The notes under the pieces: generated by a model
The model's input: the letters and a program-made list of their open reading frames with translations, nothing else
What the model was told of the DNA's origin: nothing
Database searches by the model: none
Shown here: positions 3,505 to 42,892 of the stretch, piece by piece
How the letters are laid out: each line of letters starts with the position of its first letter
Numbering within the stretch: the first letter of the stretch is position 1
Source: Patagioenas fasciata
Lineage: Eukaryota > Chordata > Aves > Columbiformes > Columbidae
Direction of reading: 5' to 3'
Assembly: GCF_037038585.1 (NCBI RefSeq)
Contig: NC_092523.1
Location: forward strand, 49,803,501-49,867,500
Length of the DNA: 64,000 bases
Translations under genes and position numbers: made by a program

Positions 3505-3860
3505 GGGGTTGGGGTTAAGGGTTGGGGTTAGGGATTGGGGTTAGGTTTAGATTTGGGGTTAGGGGTTGAGGTTTAGGGGTTGGGGTTAGGTTTAGATTTG
3601 GGTTTAGGGGTTGGGGTTAGGGTTTGGGGTTAGGGGTTGGGGTTAGGTTTAGATTTAGGGTTAGGGGTTGGGGTTAGGGTTTGGGGTTAGAAATTGGGGT
3701 TAGGTTTAGATTTGGGGTTAGGGTTTGGGGTTAGGTTTAGATTTGGGATTAGTGGTTGGGGTTTAGGGGTTGGGGTTAGGTTTAGATTTGGGTTTAGGGT
3801 TTGGGGTTAGGGGTTGGGGTTAGGTTTAGATTTGGGGTTAGGGGTTGGGGTTTAAAGGTT

Positions 3861-4250: not shown

Positions 4251-6000
4251 GGGTTAGGTTTAGATTTGGGGTTAGGGGTTGGGGTTAGGGGTTGGGGTTA
4301 GGGGTTGGGGTTAGGGGTTGAGGTTAGGTTTAGATTTGGGGTTAGGGGTTGGGGTTAGGGTTTGGGGTTAGGGATTGCGGTTAGTTTTATATTTGGGGTT
4401 AGGGGTTGGGGTTAGGGGTTGGGGTTAGGTTTAGATTTGGGGTTAGGTTTAGATTTGGGTTTAGGGGTTGGGGTTAGGGTTTGGGGTTAGGGATTGGGGT
4501 TAGGTTTAGATTTGGGTTAGGGGGTGGGCTTTAGGGGTTGGGGTTAGGTTTAGATTTGGGGTTAGGTTTTGGGGTTAGGGATTGGGGTTAGGTTTAGATT
4601 TGGGGTTAGGTTTAAATTTGGGGTTGGGGGTTGGGGTTAGGGGTTGGGGTTAGGTTTAGATTTGGGGTTAGGGGTTGGGGTTAAGGTTTGGCGTTAGGGA
4701 TTGGGGTTAGGTTTAGATTTGGAGTTAGGGGTTGGGGTTAGGTTTAGATTTGGGGTTAGGTTTAGATTTGGGGTTAGGGGTTGGGGTTAGGGGTTGGGGT
4801 TAGGGGTTGGGGTTAGGGGTTGAGGTTAGGTTTAGATTTGGGGTTAGGGGTTGGGGTTAGGGGTTGGGGTTAGGTTTAGATTTGGGGTTAGGGGTTGGGG
4901 TTTAGGGGTTGGGGTTAGGGATTGGGGTTAGGTTTAGATTTGGGGTTAGGGGTTGGGGTTAGGTTTAGATTTGGGGTTAGGGGTTGGGGTTTAGGGGTTG
5001 GGGTTAGGTTTAGATTTGGGGTTAGGGTTTGGGGTTAGGGATTGGGGTTAGGTTTAGATTTGCGGTTAGGGGTTGGGGTTAGGTTTAGATTTGGGGTTAG
5101 GGGTTGGGGTTTAGGGGTTGGGGTTAGGTTTAGATTTGGGTTTAGGGGTTGGGGTTAGTGGTTGGGGTTAGGGATTGGGGTTAGGTTTAGATTTGGGGTT
5201 AGGGGTTGGGGTTAGGGTTTGGGGTTAGGGATTGGGGTTAGGTTTAGATTTGGGGTTAGGGGTTGGGGTTTAGGGGTTGGGGTTAGGTTTAGATTTGGGT
5301 TTAGGGGTTGGGGTTAGGGTTTGGGGTTAGGGATTGGGGTTAGGTTTAGATTTGGGGTTAGGGGTTGGGGTTTAGGGGTTGGGGTTAGGTTTAGATTTGG
5401 GGTTAGGGGTTGGGGTTAGGGGTTGGGGTTAGGGATTGGGGTTAGGTTTAGATTTGGAGTTAGGGGTTGGGGTTAGGTTTAGATTTGGGGTTAGGGGTTG
5501 GGGTTAGGGTTTGGGGTTAGGGATTGGGGTTAGGTTTAGATTTGGGGTTAGGGGTTGGCGTTTAGGGGTTGGGGTTAGGTTTAGATTTGGGGTTAGGGTT
5601 TGGGGTTAGGGGTTGGGGTTAGGTTTAGATTTGGGGTTAGGGGTTGGGGTTAGGGTTTGGGGTTAGGGTTTGGGGTTAGGTTTAGATTTGGAGTTAGGGG
5701 TTGGGGTTAGGTTTAGATTTGGGGTTAGGGGTTGGGGTTAGGTTTAGATTTGGGGTTAGGGTTTGGGGTTTAGGGGTTGCGGTTAGGAATTGGGGTTAGG
5801 CTTAGATTTGGGGTTAGGTTTAGATTTGGGGTTAGGGTTTGGGGTTAGGGGTTGGGGTTAGGTTTAGATTTGGGGTTAGGGGTTGGGGTTAGGGATTTGG
5901 GTTAGTTTTAGATTTGGAGTTAGGTTTAGATTTGGGGTTAGGGGTTGGGGTTAGGGTTTGGGGTTAGGGATTGGGGTTAGGTTTATATTTGGGGTTAGGG
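4162..6000 (+). repeat. Segmental duplication, copy B (offset 4,161 bp)
   Basis: This is the second copy of the block at 1-1,839 with the same order of rare variants. After about 6,000 the two part company: copy A continues with a GGGTTT-type monomer and copy B with a GGGGTT-type one. Fragments of the block also occur further right. The diagnostic AAGGTTTGGCGTTAGG has its C at 6,290, 7,815 and 8,889 as well, so pieces were copied at least three more times at unequal spacing. Confidence 0.85.
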
Positions 6001-9000
6001 GTTGGGGTTAGGGGTTGGGGTTAGGTTTAGATTTGTGGTTAGGTTTAGATTTGGGTTTAGGGGTTGAGGTTAGGGTTTGGGGTTAGGGATTGGGGTTTAG
6101 TTTAGATTTGGGGTTAGGGGTTGGGGTTTAGGGGTTGGGGTTAGATTTAGATTTGGGGTTACGGTTTTGGGATTAGGGATTGGGGTTAGGTTTAGATTTG
6201 GGGTTAGGTTTAAATTTGGGGTTGGGGGTTGGGGTTAGGGGTTGGGGTTAGGTTTAGATTTGGGGTTAGGGGTTGGGGTTAAGGTTTGGCGTTAGGGATT
6301 GGGGTTAGGTTTAGATTTGGAGTTAGGGGTTGGGGTTAGGTTTAGATTTGGGGTAAGGTTTAGATTTGGGGTTAGGGGTTGGGGTTAGGGGTTGGGGTTA
6401 GGGGTTGAGGTTAGGTTTAGATTTGGGGTTAGGGGTTGGGGTTAGGGGTTGAGGTTAGGTTTAGATTTGGGGTTAGGGGTTGGGGTTAGGTTTAGATTTG
6501 GGGTTCGGGGTTGGGGTTAGGTTTAGATTTGGGGTTAGGGATTGGGGTTTAGGGGTTGGGGTTAAGTTTAGATTTGGGGTTAGGGTTTGGGGTTAGGGTT
6601 TGGGGTTAGGTTTAGATTTGGGGTTAGAGGTTGGGGTTAGGGTTTGGGGTTAGGGATTGGGGTTAGGTTTAGATTTGGGGTTAGGGGTTGGGGTTAGGGT
6701 TTGGGGTTAGGGATTGGGGTTAGGTTTAGATTTGGGGTTAGGGGTTGGGGTTTAGGGGTTGGGGTTAGGTTTAGATTTGGGTTTAGGGCTTGGGGTTAGG
6801 GTTTGGGGTTAGGGATTGGGGTTAGGTTTAGATTTGGGGTTAGGGGTTGGGGTTTAGGGGTTGGGTTTAGGTTTAGATTTGGGGTTAGGGGTTGGGGTTA
6901 GGGGTTGGGGTTAGGGATTGGGGTTAGGTTTAGATTTGGAGTTAGGGGTTGGGGTTAGGTTTAGATTTGGGGTTAGGGGTTGGGGTTAGGGTTTGGGGTT
7001 AGGGATTGGGGTTAGGTTTAGATTTGGGGTTAGGGGTTGGGGTTTAGGGGTTGGGGTTAGGTTTAGATTTGGGGTTAGGGTTTGGGGTTAGGGGTTGGGG
7101 TTAGGTTTAGATTTGGGGTTAGGGGTTGGGGTTAGGGTTTGGGGTTAGGGTTTGGGGTTAGGTTTAGATGTGGAGTTAGAGGTTGGGGTTAGGTTTAGAT
7201 TTGGGGTTAGGGGTTGGGGTTAGGTTTAGATTTGGGGTTAGGGTTTGGGGTTTAGGGGTTGGGGTTAGGAATTGGGGTTAGGCTTAGATTTGGGGTTAGG
7301 TTTAGATTTGGGGTTAGGGTTTGGGGTTAGGGGTTGGGGTTAGGTTTAGATTTGGGGTTAGGGGTTGGGGTTAGGGTTTGGGGTTAGGGATTGGGGTTAG
7401 GTTTAGATTTGGAGTTAGGGGTTGGGGTTAGGTTCAGATTTGGGGTTAGGTTTAGATTTGGGGTTAGGGGTTGGGGTTAGGGTTTGGGGTTAGGGATTGG
7501 GGTTAGGTTTATATTTGGGGTTAGGGGTTGGGGTTAGGGGTTGGGGTTAGGTTTAGATTTGTGGTTAGGTTTAGATTTGGGTTTAGGGGTTGGGGTTAGG
7601 GTTTGGGGTTAGGGATTGGGGTTAGGTTTAGATTTGGGGTTAGGGGTTGGGGTTTAGGGGTTGGGGTTAGGTTTAGATTTGGGGTTAGGTTTTGGGATTA
7701 GGGATTGGGGTTAGGTTTAGATTTGGGGTTAGGTTTAAATTTGGGGTTGGGGGTTGGGGTTAGGGGTCGGGGTTAGGTTTAGATTTGGGGTTAGGGGTTG
7801 GGGTTAAGGTTTGGCGTTAGGGATTGGGGTTAGGTTTAGATTTGGAGTTAGGGGTTGGGGTTAGGTTTAGATTTGGGGTTAGGTTTAGATTTGGGGTTAG
7901 GTGTTGGGGTTAGGGGTTGGGGTTAGGGGTTGGGGTTAGGGGTTGAGGTTAGGTTTAGATTTGGGGTTAGGGGTTGGGGTTAGGGGTTGGGGTTAGGTTT
8001 AGATTTGGGGTTAGGGGTTGGGGTTTAGGGGTTGGGGTTAGGGATTGGGGTTAGGCTTAGATTTGGGGTTAGGGGTTGGGGTTAGGTTTAGATTTGGGGT
8101 TAGGGGTTGGGGTTTAGGGGTTGGGGTTAGGTTTAGATTTGGGGTTAGGGTTTGGGGTTAGGGTTTGGGGTTAGGTTTAGATTTGGGGTTAGAGGTTGGG
8201 GTTAGGGTTTGGGGTTAGGGATTGGGGTTAGGTTTAGATTTGGGGTTAGGGGTTGGGGTTAGGGTTTGGGGTTAGGGATTGGGGTTAGGTTTAGATTTGG
8301 GGTTAGGGGTTGGGGTTTAGGGGTTGGGGTTAGGTTTAGATTTGGGCTTAGGGCTTGGGGTTAGGGTTTGGGGTTAGGGATTGGGGTTAGGTTTAGATTT
8401 GGGGTTAGGGGTTGGGGTGTAGGGGTTGGGTTTAGGTTTAGATTTGGGGTTAGGGGTTGGGGTTAGGGGTTGGGGTTAGGGATTGGGGTTAGGTTTAGAT
8501 TTGGAGTTAGGGGTTGGGGTTAGGTTTAGATTTGGGGTTAGGGGTTGGGGTTAGGGTTTGGGGTTAGGGATTGGGGTTAGGTTTATATTTGGGGTTAGGG
8601 GTTGGGGTTAGGGGTTGGGGTTAGGTTTAGATTTGTGGTTAGGTTTAGATTTGGGTTTAGGGGTTGGGGTTAGGGTTTGGGGTTAGGGATTGGGGTTAGG
8701 TTTAGATTTGGGGTTAGGGGTTGGGGTTTAGGGGTTGGGGTTAGGTTTAGATTTGGGGTTAGGTTTTGGGATTAGGGATTGGGGTTAGGTTTAGATTTGG
8801 GGTTAGGTTTAAATTTGGGGTTGGGGGTTGGGGTTAGGGGTTGGGGTTAGGTTTAGATTTGGGGTTAGGGGTTGGGGTTAAGGTTTGGCGTTAGGGATTG
8901 GGGTTAGGTTTAGATTTGGAGTTAGGGGTTGGGGTTAGGTTTAGATTTGGGGTTAGGTTTAGATTTGGGGTTAGGGGTTGGGGTTAGGGGTTGGGGTTAG

Positions 9001-12000
9001 GGGTTGGGGTTAGGGGTTGAGGTTAGGTTTAGATTTGGGGTTAGGGGTTGGGGTTAGTGGTTGGGGTAAGTTTTAGATTTGGAGTTAGGGGTTGGGGTTT
9101 AGGGGTTGGGGTTAGGGATTGGGGTTAGGTTTAGATTTGGGATTAGGGGTTGGGGTTAGGTTTAGATTTGGGGTTAGGGTTGGGGTTTAGGGGTTGGGGT
9201 TAGGTTTAAATTTGGGGATAGGGTTTGGGGTTAGGGTTTGGGGTTAGGTTTATATTTGGGGTTAGGGGTTGGGGTTAGGGTTTGGGGTTAGGGATTGGGG
9301 TTAGGTTTAGATTTGGGGTTAGGGGTTGGGGTTAGGGTTTGGGGTTAGGGATTGGGGTTAGGTTTAGATTTGGGGTTAGGGGTTGGGGTTTAGGGATTGG
9401 GGTTAGGTTTAGATTTGGGTTTAGGGGTTGGGGTTAGGGTTTGGGGTTAGGGATTGGGATTAGGTTTAGATTTGGGGTTAGGGGTTGGGGTTTAGGGGTT
9501 GGGGTTAGGTTTAGATTTGGGGTTAGGGGTTGGGGTTAGGGGTTGGGGTTAGGGATTGGGGTTAGGTTTAGATTTGGAGTTAGGGGTTGGGGTTAGGTTT
9601 AGATTTGGGGTTAGGGGTTGGGGTTAGGGTTTGGGGTTAGGGATTGGGGTTAGGTTTAGATTTGGGGTTAGGGGTTGGGGTTTAGGGGTTGGGGTTAGGT
9701 TTAGATTTGGGGTTAGGGTTTGGGGTTAGGGGTTGGGGTTAGGTTTAGATTTGGGGTTAGGGGTTGGGGTTAGGGTTTGGGGTTAGGGTTTGGGGTTAGG
9801 TTTAGATTTGGAGTTAGGGGTTGGGGTTAGGTTTAGATTTGGGGTTAGGGGTTGGGGTTAGGTTTAGATTTGGGGTTAGGGTTTGGGGTTTAGGGGTTGG
9901 GGTTAGGTTTAGATTTGGGTTTAGGGGTTGGGGTTAGGGTTTGGGGTTAGGGATTGGGGTTAGGTTTAGATTTGGGGTTAGGGGTTGGGGTTAGGGGTTG
10001 AGGTTAGGTTTAGATTTGGGGTTAGGGGTTGGGGATAGGGGTTGGGGTTAGGTTTAGATTTGGGTTTAGGGGTTGGGGTTTAGGGGTTGGGGTTAGGTTT
10101 AGATTTGGGGTTAGGGTTTGGGGTTAGGTATTGGGGTTAGGTTTAGATTTGGGGTTAGGTGTTGGGGTTAGGGTTTGGGTTTAGGGATTGGGGTTAGGTT
10201 TAGATTTGGGGTAAGGGGTTGGGGTTAGGTTTAGATTTGCAGTTAGGGGTTGGGGTTTAGGGGTTGGGGTTAGGTTTAGATTTGGGGTTAGGGTTTGGGG
10301 TTAGGGGTTGGGGTTAGGTTTAGATTTGGGGTTAGGGGTTGGGGTTAGGTTTAGATTTGGGGTTGGGGTTGGGGTTAGGTTTAGATTTGGGGTTACGGTT
10401 TGGGGTTAGGGGTTGGGGTTAGGTTTAGATTTGGGGTTAGGGATTGGGGTTAGGTTTAGATTTGGACTTAGGGGTTGGGGTTAGGTTTAGATTTGGGGTT
10501 AGGGGTTGGGGTTAGGGTTTGGGGTTAGGGATTGGGGTTAGGTTTAGATTTGGGGTTAGGGGTTGGGGTTTAGGGGTTGGGGTTAGGTTTAGATTTGGGG
10601 TTAGGGTTTGGGGTTAGGGGTTGGGGTTAGGTTTAGATTTGGGGTTAGGGGTTGGGGTTAGGGTTTGGGGTTAGGGATTGGGGTTAGGTTTAGATTTGGG
10701 GTTAGGTTTAAATTTGGGGTTGGGGGTTGGGGTTAGGGTTTGGGGTTAGGGATTGGGGTTAGGTTTAGATTTGGGGTTAGGTTTAGATTTGGGGTTAGGG
10801 TTTGGGGTTAGGGGTTGGGGTTAGGTTTGGATTTGGAGTTAGGGTTTGGGGTTAGGTTTAGATTTGGGGTTAGGTTTAGATTTGGGGTTAGGGGTTGGGG
10901 TTAGGGGTTGGGTTTAAAGGTTGGGGTTAGGGGTTGAGGTTAGGTTTAGATTTGGGGTTAGGGGTTGGGGTTAGGGGTTGGGTTTAGGGGTTGGGGTTTA
11001 GGGGTTGGGGTTAGGTTTAGATTTGGGGTTAGGGTTTGGGGTTAGGGGTTGGGGTTAGGTTTAGATTTGGGTTTAGGGGTTGGGGTTAGGGTTTGGTGTT
11101 AGGGATTGGGGTTAGGTTTAGATTTGGAGTTAGGGGTTGGGGTTAGGTTTAGATTTGGGGTTAGGGGTTGGGGTTAGGTTTAGATTTGGGGTTAGGGGTT
11201 GGGGTTTAGGGGTTGGGGTTAGGTTTAGATTTGGGGTTAGGGTTTGGGGTTAGGGATTGGGGTTAGGTTTAGATTTGGGGTTAGGGGTTGGGGTTAGGGT
11301 TTGGGGTTAGGGATTGGGGTTAGGTTTAGATTTGGGGTTAGGGGTTGGGGTTAGGTTTAGATTTGGGGTTAGGGGTTGGGGTTTAGGGGTTGGGGTTAGG
11401 TTTATTTTTGGGTTTAGGGGTTAGGGTTAGGGGTTGGGGTTAGGGATTGGGATTAGGTTTAGATTTGGGGTTAGGGGTTGGGGTTAGGGTTTGGGGTTAG
11501 GGATTGGGGTTAGGTTTAGATTTGGGGTTAGGGGTTGGGGTTTAGGGGTTGGGGTTAGGTTTAGATTTGGGTTTAGGGTTTGGGGTTAGGGTTTGGGGTT
11601 AGGGATTGGGGTTAGGTTTATTTGGGGTTAGGGGTTGGGGTTTAGTGGTTGGGGTTAGGTTTAGATTTGGTGTTAGGGTTTGGGGTTAGGGATTGGGATT
11701 AGGTTTAGATTTGGGGTTGGGGGTTGGGGTTAGGGTTTGGGGTTAGGGATTGGGGTTAGGGATTGGGGTTAGGTTTAGATTTGGGGTTAGGGTTTGGGGT
11801 TTAGGGGTTGGGGTTAGGTTTAGATTTGGGTTTAGGGGTTGGGGTTAGGGTTTGGGGTTAGGGATTGGGGTTAGGTTTAGATTTGGGGTTAGGGGTTGGG
11901 GTTAGGGGTTGAGGTTAGGTTTAGATTTGGGGTTAGGGGTTGGGGTTAGGGGTTGGGGTTAGGTTTAGATTTGGGGTTAGGGGTTGGGGTTTAGGGGTTG

Positions 12001-12904
12001 GGGTTAGGTTTAGATTTGGGGTTAGGGTTTGGGGTTAGGGATTGGGGTTAGGTTTAGATTTGGGGTTAGGGGTTGGGGTTAGGGTTTGGGGTTAGGGATT
12101 GGGGTTAGGTTTAGATTTGGGGTTAGGGGTTGGGGTTAGGTTTAGATTTGGAGTTAGGGGTTGGGGTTTAGGGGTTGGGGTTAGGTTTAGATTTGGGGTT
12201 AGGGTTTGGGGTTAGGGGTTGGGGTTAGGTTTAGATTTGGGGTTAGGGGTTGGGGTTAGGTTTAGATTTGGGGTTGTGGTTGGGGTTAGGTTTAGATTTG
12301 GGGTTAGGGATTGGGGTTAGGTTTAGATTTGGAGTTAGGGGTTGGGGTTAGGTTTAGATTTGGGGTTAGGGTTTGGGGTTAGGGATTGGGGTTAGGTTTA
12401 GATTTGGGGTTAGGGGTTGGGGTTAGGGTTTGGGGTTAGGGATTGGGGTTAGGTTTAGATTTGGGGTTAGGGGTTGGGGTTAGGTTTAGATTTGGGGTTA
12501 GGGGTTGGGGTTTAGGGGTTGGGGTTAGGTTTAGATTTGGGGTTAGGGGTTGGGGTTAGGGTTTGGGGTTAGGGGTTGGGGTTAGGTTTAGATTTGGGGT
12601 TAGGGGTTGGGGTTAGGTTTAGATTTGGGGTTAGGAGTTGGGGTTAGGTTTAGATTTGGGGTTAGGGATTGGGGTTAGGTTTAGATTTGGAGTTAGGGGT
12701 TGGGGTTAGGTTTAGATTTGGGGTTAGGGTTTGGGGTTAGGGATTGGGGTTAGGTTTAGATTTGGGGTTAGGGGTTGGGGTTAGGGTTTGGGGTTAGGGA
12801 TTGGGGTTAGGTTTAGATTTGGGGTTAGGGGTTGGGGTTAGGTTTAGATTTGGGGTTAGGGGTTGGGGTTTAGGGGTTGGGGTTAGGTTTAGATTTGGGT
12901 TTAG

Positions 12905-14880
12905 GAGTTAGGGTTAGGGGTTGGGGTTAGGGATTGGGATTAGGTTTAGATTTGGGGTTAGGGGTTGGGGTTAGGGTTTGGGGTTAGGGATTGGGGTTAG
13001 GTTTACATTTGGGGTTAGGGGTTGGGGTTTAGGGGTTGGGGTTAGGTTTAGATTTGGGTTTAGGGGTTGGGGTTAGGGTTTGGGGTTAGGGATTGGGGTT
13101 AGGTTTATTTGGGGTTAGGGGTTGGGGTTTAGGGGTTGGGGTTAGGTTTAGATTTGGTGTTAGGGTTTGGGGTTAGGGATTGGGGTTAGGTTTAGATTTG
13201 GGGTTGGGGTTTGGGGTTAGGGTTTGGGGTTAGGGATTGGGGTTAGGGATTGGGGTTAGGTTTAGATTTGGGGTTAGGGTTTGGGGTTTAGGGGTTGGGG
13301 TTAGGTTTAGATTTGGGTTTAGGGGTTGGGGTTAGGGTTTGGGGTTAGGGATTGGGGTTAGGTTTATATTTGGGGTTAGGGGTTGGGGTTAGGGGTTGAG
13401 GTTAGGTTTAGATTTGGGGTTAGGGGTTGGGGTTAGGGGTTGGGGTTAGGTTTAGATTTGGGGTTAGTGGTTGGGGTTTAGGGGTTGGGGTTAGGTTTAG
13501 ATTTGGGGTTAGGCTTTGGGGTTAGGGATTGGGGTTAGGTTTAGATTTGGGGTTAGGGGTTGGGGTTAGGTTTAGATTTGGGGTTAGGGTTTCGGGTTAG
13601 GAGTTGGGGTTAGGTTTAGATTTGGGGTTAGGGATTGGGGTTAGGTTTAGATTTGGGGTTGGGGTTGGGGTTACGTTTAGATTTGGGGTTAGGGTTTGGG
13701 GTTAGGAGTTGGGGTTAGGTTTAGATTTGGGGTTAGGGATTGGGGTTAGGTTTAGATTTGGAGTTAGGGGTTGGGGTTTGGTTTTGATTTGGGGTTAGGG
13801 GTTGGGGTTAGGTTTAGATTTGGGGTTAGGGGTTGGGGGTTAGGGTTTGGGGTTAGGTTTAGATTTGGGGTTAGGGTTTGGGGTTAGGGGTTGGGGTTAG
13901 GTTTAGATTTGGGGTTAGGTGTTGGGGTTAGGGGTTGGGGTTAGGGATTGGGGTTAGGTTTAGATTTGGGGTTAGGGGTTGGGGTGAGGGTTTGGGGTTA
14001 GGGATTGGGGTTAGGTTTAGATTTGGGGTTAGGGGTTGGGGTTCAGGGGTTGGGGTTAGGTTTAGATTTGGGTTTAGGGGTTGGAGTTAGGGTTTGGGGT
14101 TAGGGATTGGGGTTAGGTTTAGATTTGGGGTTAGGGGTTGGGGTTTAGGGGTTGGGATTAGGTTTAGATTTGGGGTTAGGGTTTGGGGTTAGGGATTGGG
14201 TTTAGGTTTAGATTTGGGGTTAGGTTTAGATTTGGGGTTGGGGGTTTCGGTCAGTTTTCGATTTGGGTTTCGGTTTAGATTTGGGGTTAGGCTTAGATTT
14301 GGGGTTAGGTTTAGATTTGGGGTTAGGGGTTGGAGTTAGGGCTTGGGGTTAGGTGTAGATTTGGGTTTAGGGGTTGGGGTTAGGTTTAGATTTGGGGTTA
14401 GGAGTTGGAGTTTAGGGGTTGGGGTTAGGTTTAGATTTGGGGTTAGGGTTTGGGGTTAGGGATTGGGGTTAGGTTTAGATTTGGGGTTAGGTTTAGATTT
14501 GGGTTTGGGGGTTGGGGTTAGGGGTTGAGGTTAGGGATTGGGGTTAGATTTAGATTTGGGGTTAGGGGTTGGGGTTCGGTTTAGATTTGGGGTTAGGGGT
14601 TGGGGTTAGGTTTAGATTTGGGGTTAGGGGTTGGGGTTAGGGATTGGGGTTAAGTTTAGATTTGGGGTTAGGGGTTGGAGTTAGGTTTAGATTTGGGGTT
14701 AGGGGTTGGGGTTAGGGATTGGGGTTAAGTTTAGATTTGGGGTTAGGGGTTGGGGTTACGGTTTGGGGTTAGGGATTGGGGTTAGATTTAGATTTGGCGT
14801 TAGGGGTTGGGGTTAGGTTTAGATTTGGGGTTAGGTTTAGATTTGGGGTTAGGGGTTGGGGTTTAGGGGTTGGGGTTAGG
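12905..14880 (+). repeat. Segmental duplication near the flip, copy A
   Basis: This block recurs at about 15,040-17,059. Paired markers: AGGTTTATTT at 13,101 and 15,236 (offset 2,135), GTTAGTGG at 13,463 and 15,585 (2,122), TTACGTTTAG near 13,671 and 15,850 (2,179), GTTTCGGT near 14,245 and 16,424 (2,179), GGGGTTCGG at 14,571 and 16,750 (2,179), TACGGTTTGG at 14,757 and 16,936 (2,179). The offset falls by one 13-mer and then rises by one 57 bp higher-order unit. Confidence 0.85.
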
Positions 14881-15039
14881 GGTTAGGGTTAGGGGTTGGG
14901 GTTAGGGATTGGGATTAGGTTTAGATTTGGGCTTAGGGGTTGGGGTTAGGGTTTGGGGTTAGGGATTGGGGTTAGGTTTAGATTTGGGGTGTAGGGGTTG
15001 GGGTTTAGGGGTTGGGGTTAGGTTTAGATTTGGGTTTAG

Positions 15040-17059
15040 GGGTTAGGGTTAGGGGTTGGGGTTAGGGATTGGGATTAGGTTTAGATTTGGGGTTAGGGGT
15101 TGGGGTTAGGGTTTGGGGTTAGGGATTGGGGTTAGGTTTAGATTTGGGGTTAGGGGTTGGGGTTTAGGGGTTGGGGTTAGGTTTAGATTTGGGTTTAGGG
15201 GTTGGGGTTAGGGTTTGGGGTTAGGGATTGGGGTTAGGTTTATTTGGGGTTAGGGGTTGGGGTTTAGGGGTTGGGGTTAGGTTTAGATTTGGTGTTACGG
15301 TTTGGGGTTAGGTTTAGATTTGGGGTCGGGGGTTGGGGTTAGGGTTTGGGGTTAGGGATTGGGGTTAGGGATTGGGGTTAGGTTTAGATTTGGGGTTAGG
15401 GTTTGGGGTTTAGGGGTTGGGGTTAGGTTTAGATTTGGGTTTAGGGGTTGGGGTTAGGGTTTGGGGTTAGGGATTGGGGTTAGGTTTATATTTGGGGTTA
15501 GGGGTTGGGGTTAGGGGTTGAGGTTAGGTTTAGATTTGGGGTTAGGGGTTGGGGTTAGGGGTTGGGGTTAGGTTTAGATTTGGGGTTAGTGGTTGGGGTT
15601 TAGGGGTTGGGGTTAGGTTTAGATTTGGGGTTAGGGTTTGGGGTTAGGGATTGGGGTTAGGTTTAGATTTGGGGTTAGGGGTTGGGGTTAGGGTTTGGGG
15701 TTAGGGATTGGGGTTAGGTTTAGATTTGGGGTTAGGGGTTGGGGTTAGGTTTAGATTTGGGGTTAGGGTTTCGGGTTAGGAGTTGGGGTTAGGTTTAGAT
15801 TTGGGGTTAGGGATTGGGGTTAGGTTTAGATTTGGGGTTGGGGTTGGGGTTACGTTTAGATTTGGGGTTAGGGTTTGGGGTTAGGAGTTGGGGTTAGGTT
15901 TAGATTTGGGGTTAGGGATTGGGATTAGGTTTAGATTTGGAGTTAGGGGTTGGGGTTTGGTTTTGATTTGGGGTTAGGGGTTGGGGTTAGGTTTAGATTT
16001 GGGGTTAGGGGTTGGGGTTTAGGGGTTGGGGTTAGGTTTAGATTTGGGGTTAGGGTTTGGGGTTAGGGATTGGGGTTAGGTTTAGATTTGGGGTTAGGGG
16101 TTGGGGTTAGGGGTTGGGGTTAGGGATTGGGGTTAGGTTTAGATTTGGGGTTAGGGGTTGGGGTTAGGGTTTGGGGTTAGGGATTGGGGTTAGGTTTAGA
16201 TTTGGGGTTAGGGGTTGGGGTTTAGGGGTTGGGGTTAGGTTTAGATTTGGGTTTAGGGGTTGGAGTTAGGGTTTGGGGTTAGGGATTGGGGTTAGGTTTA
16301 GATTTGGGGTTAGGGGTTGGGGTTTAGGGGTTGGGATTAGGTTTAGATTTGGGGTTAGGGTTTGGGGTTAGGGATTGGGTTTAGGTTTAGATTTGGGGTT
16401 AGGTTTAGATATGGGGTTGGGGGTTTCGGTCAGGTTTCGATTTGGGTTTCGGTTTAGATTTGGGGTTAGGCTTAGATTTGGGGTTAGGTTTAGATTTGGG
16501 GTTAGGGGTTGGAGTTAGGGCTTGGGGTTAGGTGTAGATTTGGGTTTAGGGGTTGGGGTTAGGTTTAGATTTGGGGTTAGGAGTTGGAGTTTAGGGGTTG
16601 GGGTTAGGTTTAGATTTGGGGTTAGGGTTTGGGGTTAGGGATTGGGGTTAGGATTAGATTTGGGGTTAGGGTTAGATTTGGGTTTGGGGGTTGGGATTAG
16701 GGGTTGGGGTTAGGGATTGGGGTTAGATTTAGATTTGGGGTTAGGGGTTGGGGTTCGGTTTAGATTTGGGGTTAGGGGTTGGGGTTAGGTTTAGATTTGG
16801 GGTTAGGGGTTGGGGTTAGGGATTGGGGTTAAGTTTAGATTTGGGGTTAGGGGTTGGAGTTAGGTTTAGATTTGGGGTTAGGGGTTGGGGTTAGGGATTG
16901 GGGTTAAGTTTAGATTTGGGGTTAGGGGTTGGGGTTACGGTTTGGGGTTAGGGATTGGGGTTAGATTTAGATTTGGAGTTAGGGGTTGGGGTTAGGTTTA
17001 GATTTGGGGTTAGGTTTAGATTTGGGGTTAGGGGTTGGGGTTTAGGGGTTGGGGTTAGG
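15040..17059 (+). repeat. Segmental duplication near the flip, copy B
   Basis: This is the second copy of 12,905-14,880. Against copy A it lacks one GGGATT-type 13-mer near 15,300 and carries one extra 57 bp higher-order unit near 15,660-15,720. The TACGGTTTGG marker recurs once more at 17,281, 345 bp after 16,936, which shows a further small tandem duplication just before the flip. Confidence 0.8.
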
Positions 17060-17523
17060 TTTAGATTTGGGGTTAGGGTTTGGGGTTAGGGATTGGGGTT
17101 AGGTTTAGATTTGGGGTTAGGTTTAGATTTGGGGTTGGGGGTTGGGGTTAGGGGTTGGGGTTAGGGATTGGGGTTAGATTTAGATTTGGAGTAAGGGGTT
17201 GGGGTTAGGTTGAGATTTGGGGTTAGGGTTTGGGGTTAGGGATTGGGGTTAAGTTTAGATTTGGGGTTAGGGGTTGGGGTTACGGTTTGGGGTTAGGGAT
17301 TGGGGTTAGATTTAGATTTGGAGTTAGGGGTTGGGGTTAGGTTTAGATTTGGGGTTAGGTTTAGATTTGGGGTTAGGGGTTGGGGTTTAGGGGTTGGGGT
17401 TAGGTTTAGATTTGGGGTTAGGGTTTGGGGTTAGGGATTGGGGTTAGGTTTAGATTTGGGGTTAGGTTTAGATTTGGGGTTGGGGGTTGGGGTTAGGGGT
17501 TGGAGTTAGCGATTGGGGTTAGG

Positions 17524-17535
17524 TTTAAATATAAA
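17524..17535. other. Head-to-head orientation flip of the telomere-like arrays
   Basis: The last G of the G-rich arm is at 17,523 and the first C of the C-rich arm is at 17,536. Between them lie 12 AT-only bases, TTTAAATATAAA, an imperfect palindrome inside GGTTT...AAACC. To the left AGGTTTAAAT is a normal piece of the G-rich family, as in AGGTTTAAATTTGGGG near 448. To the right TAAACCCAAATCT begins the block homologous to the reverse complement of 3,504-3,243, so the join sits at 17,530-17,532. The two flanks are not reverse complements of each other at the join itself. This geometry equals two chromosome ends fused end to end, an inversion inside satellite, or a misassembly. Confidence 0.9.
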
Positions 17536-17793
17536 CCCAAATCTAAACCTAACCCCAACCCCTAAACCCCAACCCCTAATCCCAAATCTAAACCTAACCC
17601 CAAACCCTAACCCCAAATCTAAACCTAACCCCAATCCCTAACCCCAAACCCTAACCCCAACCCCTAACCCCAAATCTAAACCTAACCCCAATCCCTAACC
17701 TCAAACCCTAACCCCAACCCCTAAACCCAAATCTAAACCTAACCCCAACCCCTAAACCCCAACCCCTAACCCCAAATCTAAACCTAACCCCAA
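17532..17793 (-). repeat. Right partner of the 262 bp inverted repeat at the flip
   Basis: This is the first sequence of the C-rich arm and is the reverse complement of 3,243-3,504 with two mismatches. Paired coordinates sum to 21,036. It ends where the C-rich arm has an AATCCC-type monomer and the left arm has an AACCCC-type one. Because the partner lies 14 kb inside the left arm, the flip is not a symmetric hairpin. Confidence 0.8.
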
Positions 17794-20700
17794 TCCCTAA
17801 CCCCAAACCTTAACCCCAACCCCTAAACCCAAATCTAAACCTAACCCCAAACCCTAAACCCCAACCCCTAATCCCAAATCTAAACCTAACCCCAAACCCT
17901 AACCCCAAATCTAAACCTAACCCCAATCCCTAACCCCAAACCCTAACCCCAACCCCTAACCCCAAATCTAAACCTAACCCCAATCCCTAACCCCAAACCC
18001 TAACCCCAACCCCTAAACCCAAATCTAAACCTAACCCCAACCCCTAAACCCCAACCCCTAACCCCAAATCTAAACCTAACCCCAGCCCCTAACCCCAACC
18101 CCTAACCCCAAGCCCTAACCCCAAATCTAAACCTAACCCCAATCCCTAACCCCAAAACCTAACCCCAAATCTAAACCTAACCCCAATCCCTAACCCCAAA
18201 CCCTAACCCCAACCCCTAACCCCAAATCTAAAACTAACCCCAATCCCTAATCCCAAACCCTAACCCCAAATCTAAACCTAACCCCAACCCCTAAACCCCA
18301 ACCCCTAACCCCAAATCTAAACCTAACCCCAATCCCTAACCCCAAACCCTAACCCCAACCCCTAAACCCAAATCTAAACCTAACCCCAACCCCTAACCCC
18401 AAATCTAAACCTAACCCCAATCCCTAACCCCAAACCCTAACCCCAACCCCTAAACCCAAATCTAAACCTAACCCCAACCCCTAAACCCCAACCCCTAACC
18501 CCAAATCTAAACCTAACCCCAATCCCTAACCCCAACCCTAAACCCCAACCCCTAACCCCAAATCTAAACCTAACCCCAATCCCTAACCCCAACCCCTAAA
18601 CCCCAACCCCTAACCCCAAATCTAAACCTAACCCCAATCCTTAACCCCAAATCCTAACCCCAACCCCTAACCCCAAATCTAAACCTAACCCCAACCCCTA
18701 ACTCCAAATATAAACCTAACCCCAATCCCTAACCCCAAACCCTAACCCCAACCCCTAACCCCAAATCTAAACCTAACCCCAACCCCTAACCCCAAACCCT
18801 AAACCCAAATCTAAACCTAACCTCAACCCCTAAACCCCAACCCCTAAAGCCAAATCTAAACCTAACCCCAACCCCTAACCCCAAACCCTAACCCCAAATC
18901 TAAACGTAACCCCAATCCCTAACCCCAAACCCTAACCCCAACCCCTAACCCCAAATCTAAACCTAACCCCTATTCCTAAACCCAACCCCTAACCCCAACC
19001 CCTAAACCCAAATCTAAACCTAACCCCAACCCCTAAACCCCAACCCCTAACCCCAAATATAAACCTAACCCCAACCCCTAACCCCAAATCTAAACCTAAC
19101 CCCAACCCCTAACTCCAAATCTAAACCTAACCCCAATCCCTAACCCCAAACCCTAACCCCAACCCCTAACCCCAAATCTAAACCTAACACCAATCCCTAA
19201 CCCCAAACCCTAACCCCAAATCTAAACCTAACCCCAACCCCTAAACCCCAACCCCTAACCCCAAATCTAAACCTAACCGAATCCTTAACCCTAAACCCTA
19301 ACCCCAACCCCTAACCCCAAATCTAAACCTAACCCCAACCCCTAACTCCAAATCTAAACCTAACCCCAATCCCTAACCCCAAACCCTAACCCCAACCCCT
19401 AACCCCAAATCTAAACCTAACCCCAACCCCTAAACCCAAACCCTAACCCCAAATGTAAACCTAACCCCAACCCCTAAACCCAAATCTAAACCTAACCCCA
19501 ACCCCTAACTCCAAATCTAAACCTAACCCCAATCCCTAACCTCAAACCCTAACCCCAACCCCTAACCCCAAATCTAAACCTAACCTCAATCCCTAACCCC
19601 AAACCCTAACCCCAAATCTAAACCTAACCCCAATTCCTAACCCCAACCCCTAACCCCAACCCCTAACCCCAACCCCTAACCCCAAATCTAAACCTAATCC
19701 CAAATCTAAACCTAACCCCAACCCCTAACCCCAAATCTAAACCTAACCCCAATCCCTAACCCCAAACCCTAACCCCAACCCCTAACCCCAAATCTAAACC
19801 TAACCACAACCCCTAACCCCAAACCCTAACCCCAAATCTAAACCTAACCCCAAATCTAAGCCTAACCCCAATCCCTAACCCCAAACCCTAACCCCAACCC
19901 CCAACCCCAAATTTAAACCTAACCCCAAATCTAAACCTAACCCCAACCCCTAACCCCAAACCCTAACCCCAAATCTAAATCTAACCCCAACCCCTAAACC
20001 CCAACCCCTAACCCCAAATCTAAACCTAACCCCAACCCCTAAACCCCAACCCCTAACCCCAAATATAAACCTAACCCCAAACCAAAACCCCAACCCCTAA
20101 CCCCAAATATAAACCTAACCCCAACCCCTAAACCCCAACCCCTAACCCCAAATCTAAACCTAACCCCAATCCCTAACCCCAAACTCTAACCCCAACCCCT
20201 AACCCCAAATCTAAACCTAACCCCAATCCCTAACCCCAAACCCTAACCCCAACCCCTAAACCCAAATCTAAACCTAACCTCAACCCCTAAACCCCAACCC
20301 CTAACCCCAAATCTAAACCTAACCCCAACCCCTAATCCCAAACCCTAACCCCAAATCTAAACCTAACCCCAACCTCTAAACCCAAATCTAAACCTAACCC
20401 CAATCCCTAACCCCAACCCCTAAACCCCAACCCCTAACCCCAAATCTAAACCTAACCCCAACCCCTAAGCCCAACCCCTAACCCCAAATCTAAACCTAAC
20501 CTCAACCCCTAACCCCAACCCCTAACCCCAACCCCTAACCCCAACCCCTAACCCCAAATCTAAACCTAACCCCAAATCTAAACCTAACCCCAACCCTTAA
20601 CTCCAAATCTAAACCTAACCCCAATCCCTAACCCCAAACCCTAACCCCAACCCCTAACCCCAAATCTAAACCTAACCCCAACCCCTAACCCCAAACCCTA

Positions 20701-21699
20701 ACCCCAAATCTAAACCTAAGCCCAAATCTAAGCCTAACCCCAATCCCTAACCCCAAACCCTAACCCCAACCCCCAAACCCAAATCTAAACCTAACCCCAA
20801 TCCCTAACCCCAAACCCTAACCCCAACCCCTAAACCCAAATCTAAACCTAACCCCAACCCCTAAACCCCAACCACTAACCCCAAATCTAAACCTAACCCA
20901 AATCCCTAAGCCCAACCCCTAACCCCAACCCCTAATCCCAAATCTAAACCTAATCCCAATCCCTAACCCCAACCCCTAACCCCAACCCCTAAACCCAAAT
21001 CTAAACCTAACCCCAACCCCTAAACCCCAACCCCTAACCCCAAATCTAAACCTAACCCCAACCCCTAACCCCAAATCTAAACCTAACCCCAATCCCTAAC
21101 CCCAAACCCTAACCCCAACCCCTAACCCCAAATCTAAACCTAACCCCAATCCCTAACCCCAAACCCTAACCCCAAATCTAAACCTAACCCCAACCCCTAA
21201 ACCCCAACCCCTAACCCCAAATCTAAACCTAACCCCAACCCCTAACCCCAAATCTAAACCTAACCCCAACCCCTAACTCCAAATCTAAACCTAACCCCAA
21301 TCCCTAACCCCAAACCCTAACCCCAACCCCTAAACCCAAATCTAAACCTAACCCCAACCCCTAACCCCAAACCCTAACCCCAAATCTAAACCTAACCCCA
21401 ACCCCTAAACCCCAACCCATAACCCCAAATCTAAACCTAACCCCAATCCCTAACCCCAAAACCTAACCCCAACCCCTAACCCCAAATCTAAACCTAACCC
21501 CAACCCCTAACTCCAAATCTAAACCTAACCCCAATCCCTAACCCCAAACCCTAACCCCAACCCCTAACCCCAAATCTAAACCTAACCCCAACCCCTAACC
21601 GCAAACACTAACCCCAAATCTAAACCTAACCCCAACCCCTAAACCCCAACCCCTAACCCCAAATCTAAACCTAACCCCAACCCCTAACCCCAAATCTAA

Positions 21700-22690
21700 A
21701 CCTAACCCCAACCCCTAACCCCAAACCCTAACCCCAACTCCTAACCCCAAATCTAAATCTAACCCCAATCCCTAACCCCAAACCCTAACCCAAATCTAAA
21801 CCTAACCCCAACCCCTAAACCCCAACCCCTAACCCCAAATCTGAACCTAACCCCAACCCTTAACTCCAAATCTAAACCTAACCACAATCCCTAACCCCAA
21901 ACCCTAACCCCAACCCCCAAACCCAAATCTAAACCTAACCCCAACCCCTAACCCCAAACCCTAACCCCAAATCTAAACCTAACCCCAAATCTAAGCCTAA
22001 CCCCAATCCCTAACCCCAAAACCTAACCCCAAACCCCAACCCCAAATCTAAACCTAACCGCAAATCTAAACCTAACCCCAATCCTTAACCCCAAACCCTA
22101 AGCCCAAATCTAAACCTAACCCCAACCCCTAAACCCCAACCCCTAACCCCAAATCTAAACCTAACCCCAATCCCTAACCCCAAACCCTAACCCCAACCCC
22201 TAAACCCAAATCTAAACCTAACCCCAACCCCTAAACCCCAACCCCTAACCCCAAATCTAAACCTAACCCCAACCCCTAACCCCAAACCCTAAACCCAAAT
22301 CTAAACCTAACCCCAACCCCTAAACCCCAACCCCTAATCCCAAATCTAAACCTAACCCCAAACCCTAACCCCAAATCTAAACCTAACCCCAATCCCTAAC
22401 CCCAAACCCTAACCCCAACCCCTAACCCCAAATCTAAACCTAACCCCAATCCCTAACCCCAAACCCTAACCCCAACCCCTAACCCCAAATCTAAACCTAA
22501 CCCCAATCCCTAACCCCAAACCCTAACCCCAAATCTAAACCTATCCCCAACCCCTAAACCCCAACCCCTAAACCCAAATCTAAACCTAACCCCAATCCCT
22601 AACCCCAAACCCTAACCCCAACCCCTAACCCCAAATCTAAACCGAACCCCAACCCCTAACTCCAAATCTAAACCTAACCCCAATCCCTAA
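21700..22690 (-). repeat. Segmental duplication in the C-rich arm, copy A (offset 3,840 bp)
   Basis: This block recurs at about 25,540-26,530 with a constant 3,840 bp offset over most of its length: CTGAACCTAACC at 21,841 and 25,681, CCCTAAGCCCAAATC ending near 22,110 and 25,950, and the stretch at 22,321 and 26,161 identical over at least 50 bp. A single missing C near 21,790 shifts the far left by one base. The edges are approximate. Confidence 0.75.
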
Positions 22691-25539
22691 CCCCAAATCT
22701 AAACCTAACCCCAACCCCTAACCCCAAATCTAAACCTAACCCCAATCCCTAACCCCAAACCCTAACCCCAAATCTAAACCTAACCCCAACCCCTAAACCC
22801 CAACCCCTAACCCCAAATCTGAACCTAACCCCAACCCCTAACTCCAAATCTAAACGTAACCCCAATCCCTAACCCTAAACCCTAACCCCAACCCCTAACC
22901 TCAAATCTAAACCTAACCCCAACCCCTAACCCCAAACCCTAACCCCAAATCTAAACCTAACCCCAAATCTAAGCCTAACGCCAATCCCTAACCCCAAAAC
23001 CTAACCCCAAACCCCAACCACAAATCTAAACCTAACCGCAAATCTAAACCTAACCACAATCCCTAACCCCAACCCTAACCCCAAATCTAAACCTAACCCC
23101 AACCCCTAAACCCCAACCCCTAACCCCAAATCTAAACCTAACCCCAATCCCTAACCTCAAACCCTAACCCCAACCCCTAAACCCAAATCTAAACCTAACC
23201 CCAACCCCTAAACCCCAACCCCTAACCCCAAATCTAAACCTAACCCCAACCCCTAACCCCAAACCCTAAACCCAAATCTAAACCTAACCCCAACCCATAA
23301 ACCCCAACCCCTAATCCCAAATCTAAACCTAACCCCAAACCCTAACCCCAAATCTAAACCTAACCCCAATCCCTAACCCCAAACCCTAACCCCAACCCCT
23401 AACCCCAAATCTAAACCTAACCCCAATCCCTAACCCAAAACCCTAACCCCAGCCCCTAAACCCAAATCTAAACCTAACCCCAACCCCTAAACCTCAACCC
23501 CTAACCCCAAATCTAAACCTAACCCCAATCCCTAACCCCAACTCTTAACCCCAACCCCTAAACCCAAATCTAAACCTAACCCCAACTCCTAAACCCCAAC
23601 CCCTAATCCCAAATCTAAACCTAACCCCAAACCCTAACCCCAAATCTAAACCTAACCCCAATCCCTAACCCCAAAACCTAACCCCAACCCCTAACCCCAA
23701 ATCTAAACCTAACCCCAATCCCTAACCCCAAACCCTAACCCCAACCCCTAAACCCAAATCTAAACCTAACCCCAACCCCTAAACCCCAACCCCTAACCCC
23801 AAATCTTAACCTAACCCCAACCCCTAACCCCAAATCTAAACCTAACCCCAACCCCTAACTCCAAATCTAAACCTAACCCCAATCCCTAACCCCAAACCCT
23901 AACCCCAACCCCTAACCCCAAATCTAAACCTAACCCCAACCCCTAACCCCAACCCCTAACCCCAAATCTAAACCTAACCCCAACGCTAAACCCAAATCTA
24001 AACCTAACCCCAACCCCTAACCCCAACCCCTAACCCCAAATCTAAACCTAACCTCAACCCCTAACCCCAACCCCTAAACCCAACCCCTAACCCCAACCCC
24101 TAACCCCAAATCTTAACCTAACCCCAAATCTAAACCTAACCCCAAATCTAAGCCTAACCCCAATCCCTAACCCCAAACCCTAACCCCAACCCCCAACCCC
24201 AAATTTAAACCTAACCCCAAATCTAAACCTAACCCCAGTCCCTAACCCCAAACCCTAACCCCAACCCCTAACCCCAAATCTAAACCTAACCCCAACCCCT
24301 AACCCCAAACCCTAACCCCAAATCTAAACCTAACCCCAACCCCTAAACCCCAACCCCTAACCCCAAATCTAAACCTAACCCCAATCCCTAACCCCAAACC
24401 CTAACCCCAACCACTAACCCCAAATCTAAACCTAACCCCAACCCCTAACTCCAAATCTAAACCTAACCCCAATCCCTAACCCCAAATCTAAACCTAACCC
24501 CAACCCCTAACCCCAAACCCTAACCCCAAATCTAAACCTAACCCCAACCCCTAACCCCAAATCTAAACCTAACCCCAACCCCTAACCCCAACCCCTAACC
24601 CCAAATCTAAACCTAACCCCAATCCCTAACCCCAAACCCTAACCCCAACCCCTAACCCCAAATCTAAACCTAACCCCAATCCCTAACCCCAAACCCTAAC
24701 CCCAAATCTAAACCTAACCCCAAGCCCTAAACCCCAACCCCTAACCCCAAATCTAAACCTAACCCCAACCCCTAACCCCAACCCCTAACCCCAAATCTAA
24801 ACCTAACCTCAACCCCTAACCCCAACCCCTAACCCCAAATCTAAACCTAACCCCAATCCCTAACCCCAACCCCTAACCCCAACCCCTAAACCCAAATCTA
24901 AACCTAACCCCAACCCCTAAACCCCAAACCCTAACCCCAAATCTAAACCTAACCCCAACCCCTAACCCCAAATCTAAACCTAACCCCAATACCTAACCCC
25001 AAACCCTAACCCCAACCCCTAAACCCAAATCTAAACCTAACCCCAACCCCTAAACCCCAACCCCTAACCTCAAATCTAAACCTAACCCCAACCCCTAACC
25101 CCAAATCTAAACCTAACCCCAACCCCTAACTCCAAATCTAAACCTAACCCCAATCCCTAACCCCAAACCCTAACCCCAACCCCTAACCCCAAATCTAAAC
25201 CCAACCCCAACCCCTAACCCCAACCCCTAACCCCAAATCTAAACCTAACCCCAACCCCTAACCCCAAATCTAAACCTAACCCCAACCCCTAACCCCAAAC
25301 CCTAACCCCAAATCTAAACCTAACCCCAACCCCTAAACCCCAACCCCTAACCCCAAATCTAAACCTAAACCCAATCCCTAACCCCAAAACCTAACCCCAA
25401 CCCCTAACCCCAAATCTAAACCTAACCCCAACCCCTAACTCCAAATCTAAACCTAACCCCAATCCCTAACCCCAAACCCTAACCCCAACCCCTAACCCCA
25501 AATCTAAACCTAACCCCAACCCCTAACCCCAAATCTAAA

Positions 25540-26530
25540 CCTAACCCCAACCCCTAACCCCAAACCCTAACCCCAACCCCTAACCCCAAATCTAAACCTA
25601 ACCCCAATCCCTAACCCCAAACCCTAACCCCAAATCTAAACCTAACCCCAACCCCTAAACCCCAACCCCTAACCCCAAATCTGAACCTAACCCCAACCCT
25701 TAACTTCAAATCTAAACCTAACCCCAATCCCTAACCCCAAACCCTAACCCCAACCCCTAACCCCAAATCTAAACCTAACCCCAACCCCTAACCCCAAACC
25801 CTAACCCCAAATCTAAACCTAACCCCAAATCTAAGCCTAACCCCAATCCCTAACCCCAAAACCTAACCCCAAACCCCAACCCCAAATCTAAACCTAACCG
25901 CAAATCTAAACCTAACCCCAATCCCTAACCCCAAACCCTAAGCCCAAATCTAAACCTAACCCCAACCCCTAAACCCCAACCCCTAACCCCAAATCTAAAC
26001 CTAACCCCAATCCCTAACCCCAAACCCTAACCCCAACCCCTAAACCCAAATCTAAACCTAACCCCAACCCCTAAACCCCAACCCCTAACCCCAAATCTAA
26101 ACCTAACCCCAACCCCTAAGCCCAAACCCTAAACCCAAATCTAAACCTAACCCCAACCCCTAAACCCCAACCCCTAATCCCAAATCTAAACCTAACCCCA
26201 AACCCTAACCCCAAATCTAAACCTAACCCCAATCCCTAACCCCAAACCCTAACCCCAACCCCTAACCCCAAATCTAAACCTAACCCCAATCCCTAACCCC
26301 AAACCCTAACCCCAACCCCTAACCCCAAATGTAAACCTAACCCCAACCCCTAACCCCAAACCCTAACCCCAAATCTAAACCTAACCCCAACCCCTAAACC
26401 CCAACCCCTAAACCCAAATCTAAACCTAACCCCAATCCCTAATTCCAAACCCTAACCCCAACCCCTAACCCCAAATCTAAACCTAACCCCAACCCCTAAC
26501 TCCAAATCTAAACCTAACCCCAATCCCTAA
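25540..26530 (-). repeat. Segmental duplication in the C-rich arm, copy B (offset 3,840 bp)
   Basis: This is the second copy of about 21,700-22,690. It differs at a few points, such as AATGTAAACC at 26,327 and AATTCC at 26,441. These variants then recur in the next, larger duplication, which gives a relative order of events: this copy first, the 2,569 bp tandem duplication later. Confidence 0.7.
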
Positions 26531-28860
26531 CCCCAAACCCTAACCCCAACCCCTAACCCCAAATCTAAACCTAACCCCAACCCCTAACCCCAAACCCTAA
26601 CCCCAAATATAATCCTAACCCCAACCCCTAAACCCCAACCCCTAACCCCAAATCTAAACCTAACCCCAACCCCTAACCCCAAATCTAAACCTAACCCCAA
26701 TCCCTAACCCCAAACCCTAACCCCAAATCTAAACCTAACCACAACCCCTAAACCCCAACCTCTAACCCCAAATCTGAACCTAACCCCAACCCCTAACTCC
26801 AAATCTAAACCTAACCCCAATCCCTAACCCCAAACCCTAACCCCAACCCCTAACCCCAAATCTAAACCTATCCCCAACCCCTAACCCCAAACCCTAACCC
26901 CAAATCTAAACCTAACCCCAAATCTAAGCCTAACCCCAATCCCTAACCCCAAAACCTAACCCCAAACCCCAACCCCAAATCTAAACCTAACCGCAAATCT
27001 AAACCTAACCCCAATCCCTAACCCCAACCCCTAACCCCAAATCTAAACCTAACCCCAACCCCTAAACCCCAACCCCTAACCCCAAATCTAAACCTAACCC
27101 CAATCCCTAACCTCAAACCCTAACCCCAACCCCTAAACCCAAATCTAAACCTAACCCAAACCCCTAAACCCCAACCCCTAACCCCAAATCTAAACCTAAC
27201 CCCAACCCCTAACCCCAAACCCTAAACCCAAATCTAAACCTAACCCCAACCCGTAAACCCCAACCCCTAATCCCAAATCTAAACCTAACCCCAAACCCTA
27301 ACCCCAAATCTAAACCTAACCACAATCCCTAACCCCAAACCCTAACCCCAACCCCTAACCCCAAATCTAAACCTAACCCCAATCCCTAACCCAAAACCCT
27401 AACCCCAACCCCTAAACCCAAATCTAAACCTAACCCCAACCCCTAAACCTCAACCCCTAACCCCAAATCTAAACCTAACCCCAATCCCTAACCCCAAACC
27501 CTAACCCCAACCCCTAAACCCAAATCTAAACCTAACCCCAACCCCTAAACCCCAACCCCTAACTCCAAATCTAAACCTAACCCCAACCCCTAACCCCAAA
27601 TCTAAACCTAACCCCAACCCCTAACTCCAAATCTAAACCTAACCCCAATCCCTAACCCCAAACCCTAACCCCAACCCCTAACCCCAAATCTAAACCTAAC
27701 CCCAACCCCTAACTCCAAACCCTAACCCCAAATCTAAACCTAACCCCAACCCCTAAACCCCAACCCCTAACCCCAAATCTAAACCTAACCCCAATCCCTA
27801 ACCCAAAACCCTAACCCCAACCCCTAACCCCAAATCTAAACCTAACCCCAACCCCTAACTCCAAATCTAAACCTAACCCCAATCCCTAACCCCAAACCCT
27901 AACCCCAACCCCTAACCCCAAATCTAAACCTAACCCCAACCCCTAACCCCAAACCCTAACCCCAAATCTAATCCTAACCCCAACCCCTAAACCCCAACCC
28001 CTAACCCCAAATCTAAACCTAACCCCAACCCCTAACCCCAAATCTAAACCTAACCCCAATCCCTAACCCCAACCCCTAAACCCCAAACCCTAACCCCAAA
28101 TCTAAAGCTAACCCCAACCCCTAACCCCAACCCCTAACCCCAAATCTAAACCTAACCTCAACCCCTAATCCCAACCCCTAAACCCAACCCCTAACCCCAA
28201 CCCCTAACCCCAAATCTAAACCTAACCCCAAATCTAAACCTAACCCCAACCCCTAACACCAAATCCAAACCTAACCCCAATCCCTAACCCCAAACCCTAA
28301 CCCCAACCCCTAACCCCAAATCTAAACCTAACCCCAACCCCTAACCCCAAACCCTAACCCCAAATCTAAACCTAACCCCAAATCTAAGCCTAAACCCAAT
28401 CCCTAACCCCAAACCCTAACCCCAACCCCCAACCCCAAATTTAAACCTAACCCCAAATCTAAACCTAACCCCAATCCCTAACCCCAAACCCTAACCCCAA
28501 CCCCTAACCCCAAATCTAAACCTAACCCCAACCCCTAACCTCAAACCCTAAAACCAAATCTAAACCTAACCCCAACCCCTAAACCCCAACCCCTAACCCC
28601 AAATCTAAACCTAACCCCAATCCCTAACCCCAAACCCTAACCCCAACCCCTAACCCCAAATCTAAACCTAACCCCAACCCCTAACTCCAAATCTAAACCT
28701 AACCCCAATCCCTAACCCCAAATCTAAACCTAACCCCAACCCCTAACCCCAAACCCTAACCCCAAATCTAAACCTAACCCCAACCCCTAACCCCAAATCT
28801 AAACCTAACCCCAACCCCTAACCCCATATCTAAACCTAACCCCAACCCCTAACCCCAAAC
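26291..28860 (-). repeat. 2,569 bp tandem duplication, first copy
   Basis: This is the first of two adjacent, nearly identical copies. Rare markers repeat at exactly +2,569: GTAAAC of AATGTAAAC (26,331 and 28,900), ATTCC (26,442 and 29,011), AAATATAATCC (26,605 and 29,174), CCGTAAACC (27,251 and 29,820), CTAAAGCT (28,102 and 30,671), TCAAACCCTAAAACC (28,541 and 31,110), CCCCATATC (28,822 and 31,391). The ends are uncertain by about 20 bp because the monomers themselves match across them. Confidence 0.9.
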
Positions 28861-42883: not shown

Positions 42884-42892
42884 TCTTGCTAC
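42884..42892. other. Boundary between telomere-like array and 1.7 kb satellite
   Basis: The C-rich array ends with CTAACTCCAAATCT and passes directly into TGCTACTTCTCCTCC, which is an internal point of the 1.7 kb unit (GTGCTACTTCTCC in other copies). The join lies at 42,886/42,887. There is no spacer, no degraded transition zone and no target-site duplication in view. Confidence 0.9.

Follow-up and report, generated by a model that had tools for sequence, protein, structure and literature searches.

The plus strand of the window, the whole 64-kb stretch of DNA analysed here, passes from the G-rich to the C-rich strand of one telomere-like minisatellite. This strand switch is confirmed in the given sequence; it is sharp and essentially a blunt join. 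The two arms on either side of it draw on a single pool of repeat variants, and the switch lies inside, or at the edge of, the most degenerate stretch of the array. The best reading of these features is that the switch is an old inversion-type junction inside the satellite, a reading that we hold with about as much belief as doubt.

Position and structure of the strand switch

G-rich sequence occupies 1–17,530 of the plus strand and C-rich sequence the stretch 17,532 to about 42,886; a single base separates the two (Table 1). In 1-kb bins, the GC skew is +0.95 to +1.00 throughout 1–17,000, +0.05 in the bin 17,001–18,000, and −0.97 to −1.00 throughout 18,001–42,000. The hexamers CCCTAA and CCCCAA are absent from the plus strand within 1–17,520, and TTAGGG and TTGGGG are absent from it within 17,546–42,880; given this strict separation by strand, the hexamer test leaves one switch in an array of about 43 kb. 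No 20-mer is common to the left and right arms in direct orientation. The longest suffix with a match in the G-rich pool has its last base at 17,530 and measures only 18 bp, owing to private changes in the final words of the left arm; matches of at least 60 bp to the C-rich pool start at 17,532. On the plus strand, the sequence across the switch reads GGGTTAGGTTTAAAT-A-TAAACCCAAATCTA. The 21-mer at the switch occurs only once in the 64-kb window, which is free of N bases.

The preliminary description had reported a plus strand that turns from 17.5 kb of G-rich to 25.4 kb of C-rich sequence. The change of strand is borne out by GC skew, hexamer counts and pool matches, and the arm sizes are correct, at no less than 17,530 bp and about 25.35 kb. 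There is no return switch within the window: at about 42,886 the right arm gives way to a different tandem array, and the left arm overruns the window edge.

Table 1. Coordinates of the switch, the two arms and associated features in the 64-kb window.
Feature	Position	Strand	Properties
Left arm, G-rich satellite	1..17530	+	Words TTAGGGNTTGGGG (13 bp) and TTAGGTTTAGATTTGGGG (18 bp); cut by the left edge of the window
Strand switch	17531..17531		Base A, outside the matching pools of both arms, between GGTTTAAAT and TAAACCCAAATC
Right arm, satellite of the left arm in reverse orientation (C-rich on +)	17532..42886	-	Assigned by skew, words and shared matches
Degenerate zone ending at the switch	13351..17588		0.671 canonical words
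Wider degenerate segment, switch inside	12876..24238		0.738 canonical words; slightly better score
Tandem pair beside the switch, within the degenerate zone; copies of about 2,179 bp	12697..17054	+	98.9% identity at aligned bases, 116 gap columns
Tandem duplication, middle of the right arm	26291..31441	-	2,582 bp, spacing 2,569 bp, one mismatch (580 + 1 + 2,001)
Tandem array adjoining the right arm	42888..64000	+	12 complete copies of a 1,697–1,700-bp unit and a 740-bp partial copy; overruns the right edge

The junction is of a clean end-join type. Mirror identity at the switch is 0.848, 0.829 and 0.836 over 500, 1,000 and 2,000 bp, respectively; the corresponding means for random left/right pairs (60 per length) are 0.852, 0.853 and 0.853. 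In the 3 kb next to the switch on either side, exact inverted matches reach at most 130 bp, as compared with 113–243 bp in 12 random 3-kb pairs; for the whole arms the maximum is 393 bp, and this match lies at 7.6 kb and 20.0 kb from the switch. Since mirror identity is at or below the random mean and inverted matches near the switch are not unusually long, an artefact of fold-back (template-complement) reads was rejected. A switch driven by a hairpin was also rejected; the 6-bp stem GGTTTA/TAAACC is equalled or beaten in 1,580 of 3,000 random abutments of the arms. A microhomology join via AAAT, which overlaps at 17,527–17,530, is possible; it accounts for the junction less well than a start at 17,532, as the match to the C-rich pool extends for 11 bp from the overlap versus at least 60 bp from 17,532.

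One satellite on both strands

The array is a satellite composed of a 13-bp word, TTAGGGNTTGGGG (where N is G, T or A), and an 18-bp word, TTAGGTTTAGATTTGGGG. When the C-rich strand is cut behind every CCTAA, the left arm gives 1,107 words and the right arm 1,652 (end pieces counted); the commonest, as written on the C-rich strand, are CCCCAACCCCTAA, CCCCAAATCTAAACCTAA, CCCCAAACCCTAA and CCCCAATCCCTAA. The periods of 13, 31, 44 and 57 reported by Tandem Repeats Finder correspond to 13 or 18 + 13n, and its periods of 6 and 7 are parts of words.

The repeat TTTAGGG is described as that of Toxoplasma telomeres (PMC9498087; PMC4008256); a Toxoplasma-like source for the window is a guess of the preliminary description. 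Its tandem dimer, (TTTAGGG)2, does not occur on either strand of the 64 kb, switch included. Single copies of TTTAGGG are found inside satellite words (111 on the plus and 184 on the minus strand), and (TTAGGG)2 is present five times on the plus and three times on the minus strand of the window. A true telomere array was rejected on the complete lack of tandem TTTAGGG dimers; the array is a satellite that resembles telomeric sequence and is distinct from a telomere of the TTTAGGG kind. The term 'telomere-like' in the preliminary description is therefore apt for composition and single motifs, and fails for tandem repeats. Exact matches to the satellite pattern were absent from the viral and prokaryote contigs scanned (a set that may omit the window's own genome), and a literature search with six satellite words returned, as judged by titles, nothing on this satellite. 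Most likely, the array acts as gene-free heterochromatin.

In both composition and shared sequence, the two arms behave as one population. Eight word classes (the seven commonest words and the rest) show no difference in frequency between the arms (χ2 = 3.80, P = 0.80; 1,106 left and 1,651 right complete words). Exact matches of at least 100 bp occur at densities of 2.10 per Mb² within the left arm, 2.12 within the right arm, and 2.11 between the arms in inverted orientation, within-arm densities being based only on pairs at least 5 kb apart. In the same order, the densities are 14.94, 19.18 and 17.79 at 60 bp, 0.20, 0.31 and 0.26 at 150 bp, and 0.06, 0.10 and 0.05 at 200 bp (5, 21 and 21 matches). 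When the best partner of 300-bp pieces is sought outside 1.5 kb, the average for the left arm is 0.757 in its own arm versus 0.659 in the other, and that for the right arm is 0.779 versus 0.684; this own-arm advantage is put down to local tandem duplications. A word-level local alignment of the arms gave near-global alignments under loose scoring, and was kept out of the evidence.

Degeneration and duplication along the array

Canonical words, defined as the seven commonest, account for 2,233 of the 2,757 words in the whole array. In the 4 kb to the left of the switch they number 155 of 230, as compared with 729 of 876 in the remainder of the left arm (Fisher P = 4e-7; P = 0.001 by permutation of 1-kb blocks). 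The 4 kb to the right of the switch contain 208 canonical words out of 259 and are thus ordinary; the step between the left and right sides of the switch has P = 0.0013. The middle of the right arm (933/1,133) and its last 4 kb (208/259) complete the profile, and at this other edge of the right arm the drop is confined to the last 1.4 kb. The right side is weak; the first six 1-kb blocks right of the switch, a number picked after the values had been viewed, give P = 0.02.

A best-match score compares 300-bp pieces with anything at least 4 kb away in the same arm or with anything in the other arm; it is about 0.85 at 3.5–5 kb and 32–36 kb and drops to 0.49 at 15.5 kb. Counted from the lowest, 4-kb intervals centred at 17,500 rank 22nd of 156 for canonical words and 21st of 156 for best match. 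Of 200 block permutations, 2 reached the score observed for the best degenerate segment. The zone is skewed leftwards, with its minimum 2 kb left of the switch; by simple arithmetic, a random point would fall that close to the minimum about one time in ten. Because inverted neighbours would be unable to exchange across the switch, the degenerate zone may be the trace of an old array edge.

Both arms also contain duplications (Table 1). The tandem pair beside the switch is an older duplication. The 2,582-bp duplication in the right arm is either the product of a very recent unequal exchange or was made by the assembler. In addition, the left arm carries an exact 1,485-bp repeat, whose copies at 252–1,736 and 4,413–5,897 are offset by 4,161 bp.

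In the adjoining array, the copies of the 1,697–1,700-bp unit all run in one direction, and each complete copy has 3–9 differences from the consensus. A 3-bp insertion is common to copies 7, 9 and 10, which are not all adjacent. Rfam, applied at gathering score to 42,800–64,000, gave no match. Some unit copies near the right end have a reading frame of 177 aa that is absent from the consensus unit; the consensus does have frames of at least 110 aa, the longest of 134 aa. A protein search with the 177-aa frame returned 119 candidates, none at E ≤ 0.001. The exact pattern of the unit was not found in viral contigs, in a scan that may omit the window's own genome.

Origin of the switch

An old inversion-type junction is suggested by the indistinguishable word composition of the arms, their equal match densities, the lack of a TTTAGGG dimer, the degenerate flank, and the clean junction. 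The arrangement that characterises such a junction, one satellite family on opposite strands on its two sides, was found. The sequence of events may have begun with a double-strand break within the satellite; a satellite segment could then have been turned round, or a fragment of this satellite family brought in from another place and joined in reverse, with the break being repaired by end joining. Inverted neighbours would no longer pair for unequal crossing over across the switch, and homogenisation would slow there. The repeats flanking the switch would drift, leaving a degenerate zone at the switch and fresh tandem duplications in the arms. In human alpha satellite, inversions are described as commoner in divergent layers, and one is reported within the array of a live centromere (PMC9549924). 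Against an inversion-type origin stand the lopsided zone, the fact that intervals centred at 17,500 are low but not the lowest, the offset of 2 kb between minimum and switch, the short extent (1.4 kb) of the drop at the far edge of the right arm, and the lack of a return switch in the window; with a single switch in view, inversion and fusion are not separable by sequence alone. If the switch is real, it constitutes a clean breakpoint in a satellite that is still exchanging sequence, and the extent to which homogenisation has been lost to its left, which can be measured, might serve to date inversions or fusions where chromosome ends are rich in repeats. Telomere-like strand bias alone marks neither a telomere nor a fusion.

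The preliminary description had left three options, namely fusion of two chromosome ends, inversion within subtelomeric satellite, and a misjoin by the assembler. Of these, the inversion fits best, and the misjoin is eliminated only in its fold-back form, by mirror identity. Long, similar satellite is where assemblers fail, and an error of assembly or library preparation, in which two arrays of the family from separate locations were brought together head to head by read chimerism or by a forced join of contigs, is a rather unlikely alternative. A ligation chimera would also leave a join with one extra base, and a long-read study of Toxoplasma describes telomeric regions as not deeply assessed (PMC12690857; not known to be the present assembly). 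Fold-back reads are not the cause, as mirror identity at the switch is no higher than in random pairs. The lack of N bases also speaks against an error, and because the 21-mer at the switch has no second copy in the window, overlap assembly should require one or more reads containing it. A random chimera, moreover, need not hit the degenerate zone, although this coincidence is one of only about one in ten.

The claim that had headed the preliminary description, telomere-like arrays joined as in an end-to-end chromosome fusion, is unsupported, the array being a 13/18-bp satellite with no TTTAGGG dimer. The accompanying argument, that G-rich followed by C-rich sequence means two ends facing each other, is right for true telomeres. 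A fusion scar would here imply loss of the telomeric tips from two chromosomes, with the 13/18-bp satellite left at their ends, and is unlikely. Its orientation fits two facing ends, the neighbouring tandem array is compatible with a subtelomere, and large telomere-like blocks are described as being often seen as rearrangement remnants (PMC6410037). Yet there is no tandem TTTAGGG dimer at the switch or anywhere else in the window, the arms are as alike as one array, so that both ends would need to have shared one pool, and the window ends within the left arm, with nothing in it that points to two ancestral chromosomes. A fusion, if there was one, would be through satellite, not through telomeres. 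It is doubtful, and a little more so than fusion as such, that the switch is a real fusion scar of ends in telomere-like satellite devoid of canonical telomere repeats, with a datable homogenisation trough left by fusion of subtelomeric satellites. Very improbable is a functional feature, such as a selected replication or heterochromatin boundary; the switch is sharp and single in 43 kb, but its 6-bp stem is no stronger than chance and its left flank is degenerate. The switch itself needs no function.

Several known systems resemble the present array in part. Human alpha satellite, as described in PMC9549924, likewise has one family on both strands, with disorder, including inversions, in divergent and poorly homogenised layers; in contrast, the array in the window is a G-rich, telomere-like 13/18-bp minisatellite, compared here by its sequence and not by any link to a centromere. 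The human 2q13–2q14 fusion site shares the order of G-rich strand followed by C-rich strand; it is described as consisting of degenerate TTAGGG telomere repeats (PMC6410037), whereas 13/18-bp words extend over 43 kb here, with no TTTAGGG dimer. Of the features of a 2q13-type fusion, the head-to-head orientation was found, and tandem true telomeric repeats on both sides were not. Fusion sites of the Indian muntjac (PMC2760882) also have satellite at the proposed chromosome junction. There, head-to-tail fusions with demonstrated breaks in synteny are reported to have (TTAGGG)n adjoining centromeric satellite I (PMC2760882); here, one satellite faces itself, as known from the sequence of the window only. 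The het-ITS blocks covered in PMC6410037 are likewise long and telomere-like, with satellite character; they are presented as blocks of telomeric repeats, mainly (peri)centromeric, in vertebrates, the comparison with the present array being made apart from its chromosomal location.

The TgTARE1–3 and Sat350 repeats of Toxoplasma (PMC4008256) are described as tandem, gene-poor and oriented repeats near chromosome ends, and to this extent are similar. By unit size, which is the basis of this comparison rather than sequence, they do not correspond: the TgTARE units are given as about 350/680 and 250–300 bp (PMC4008256), as against 13/18-bp words and a 1,697-bp unit in the window. On chromosome IV of Toxoplasma, roughly 60 kb are reported to separate an inverted element from an internal tract of TTTAGGG (PMC4008256).
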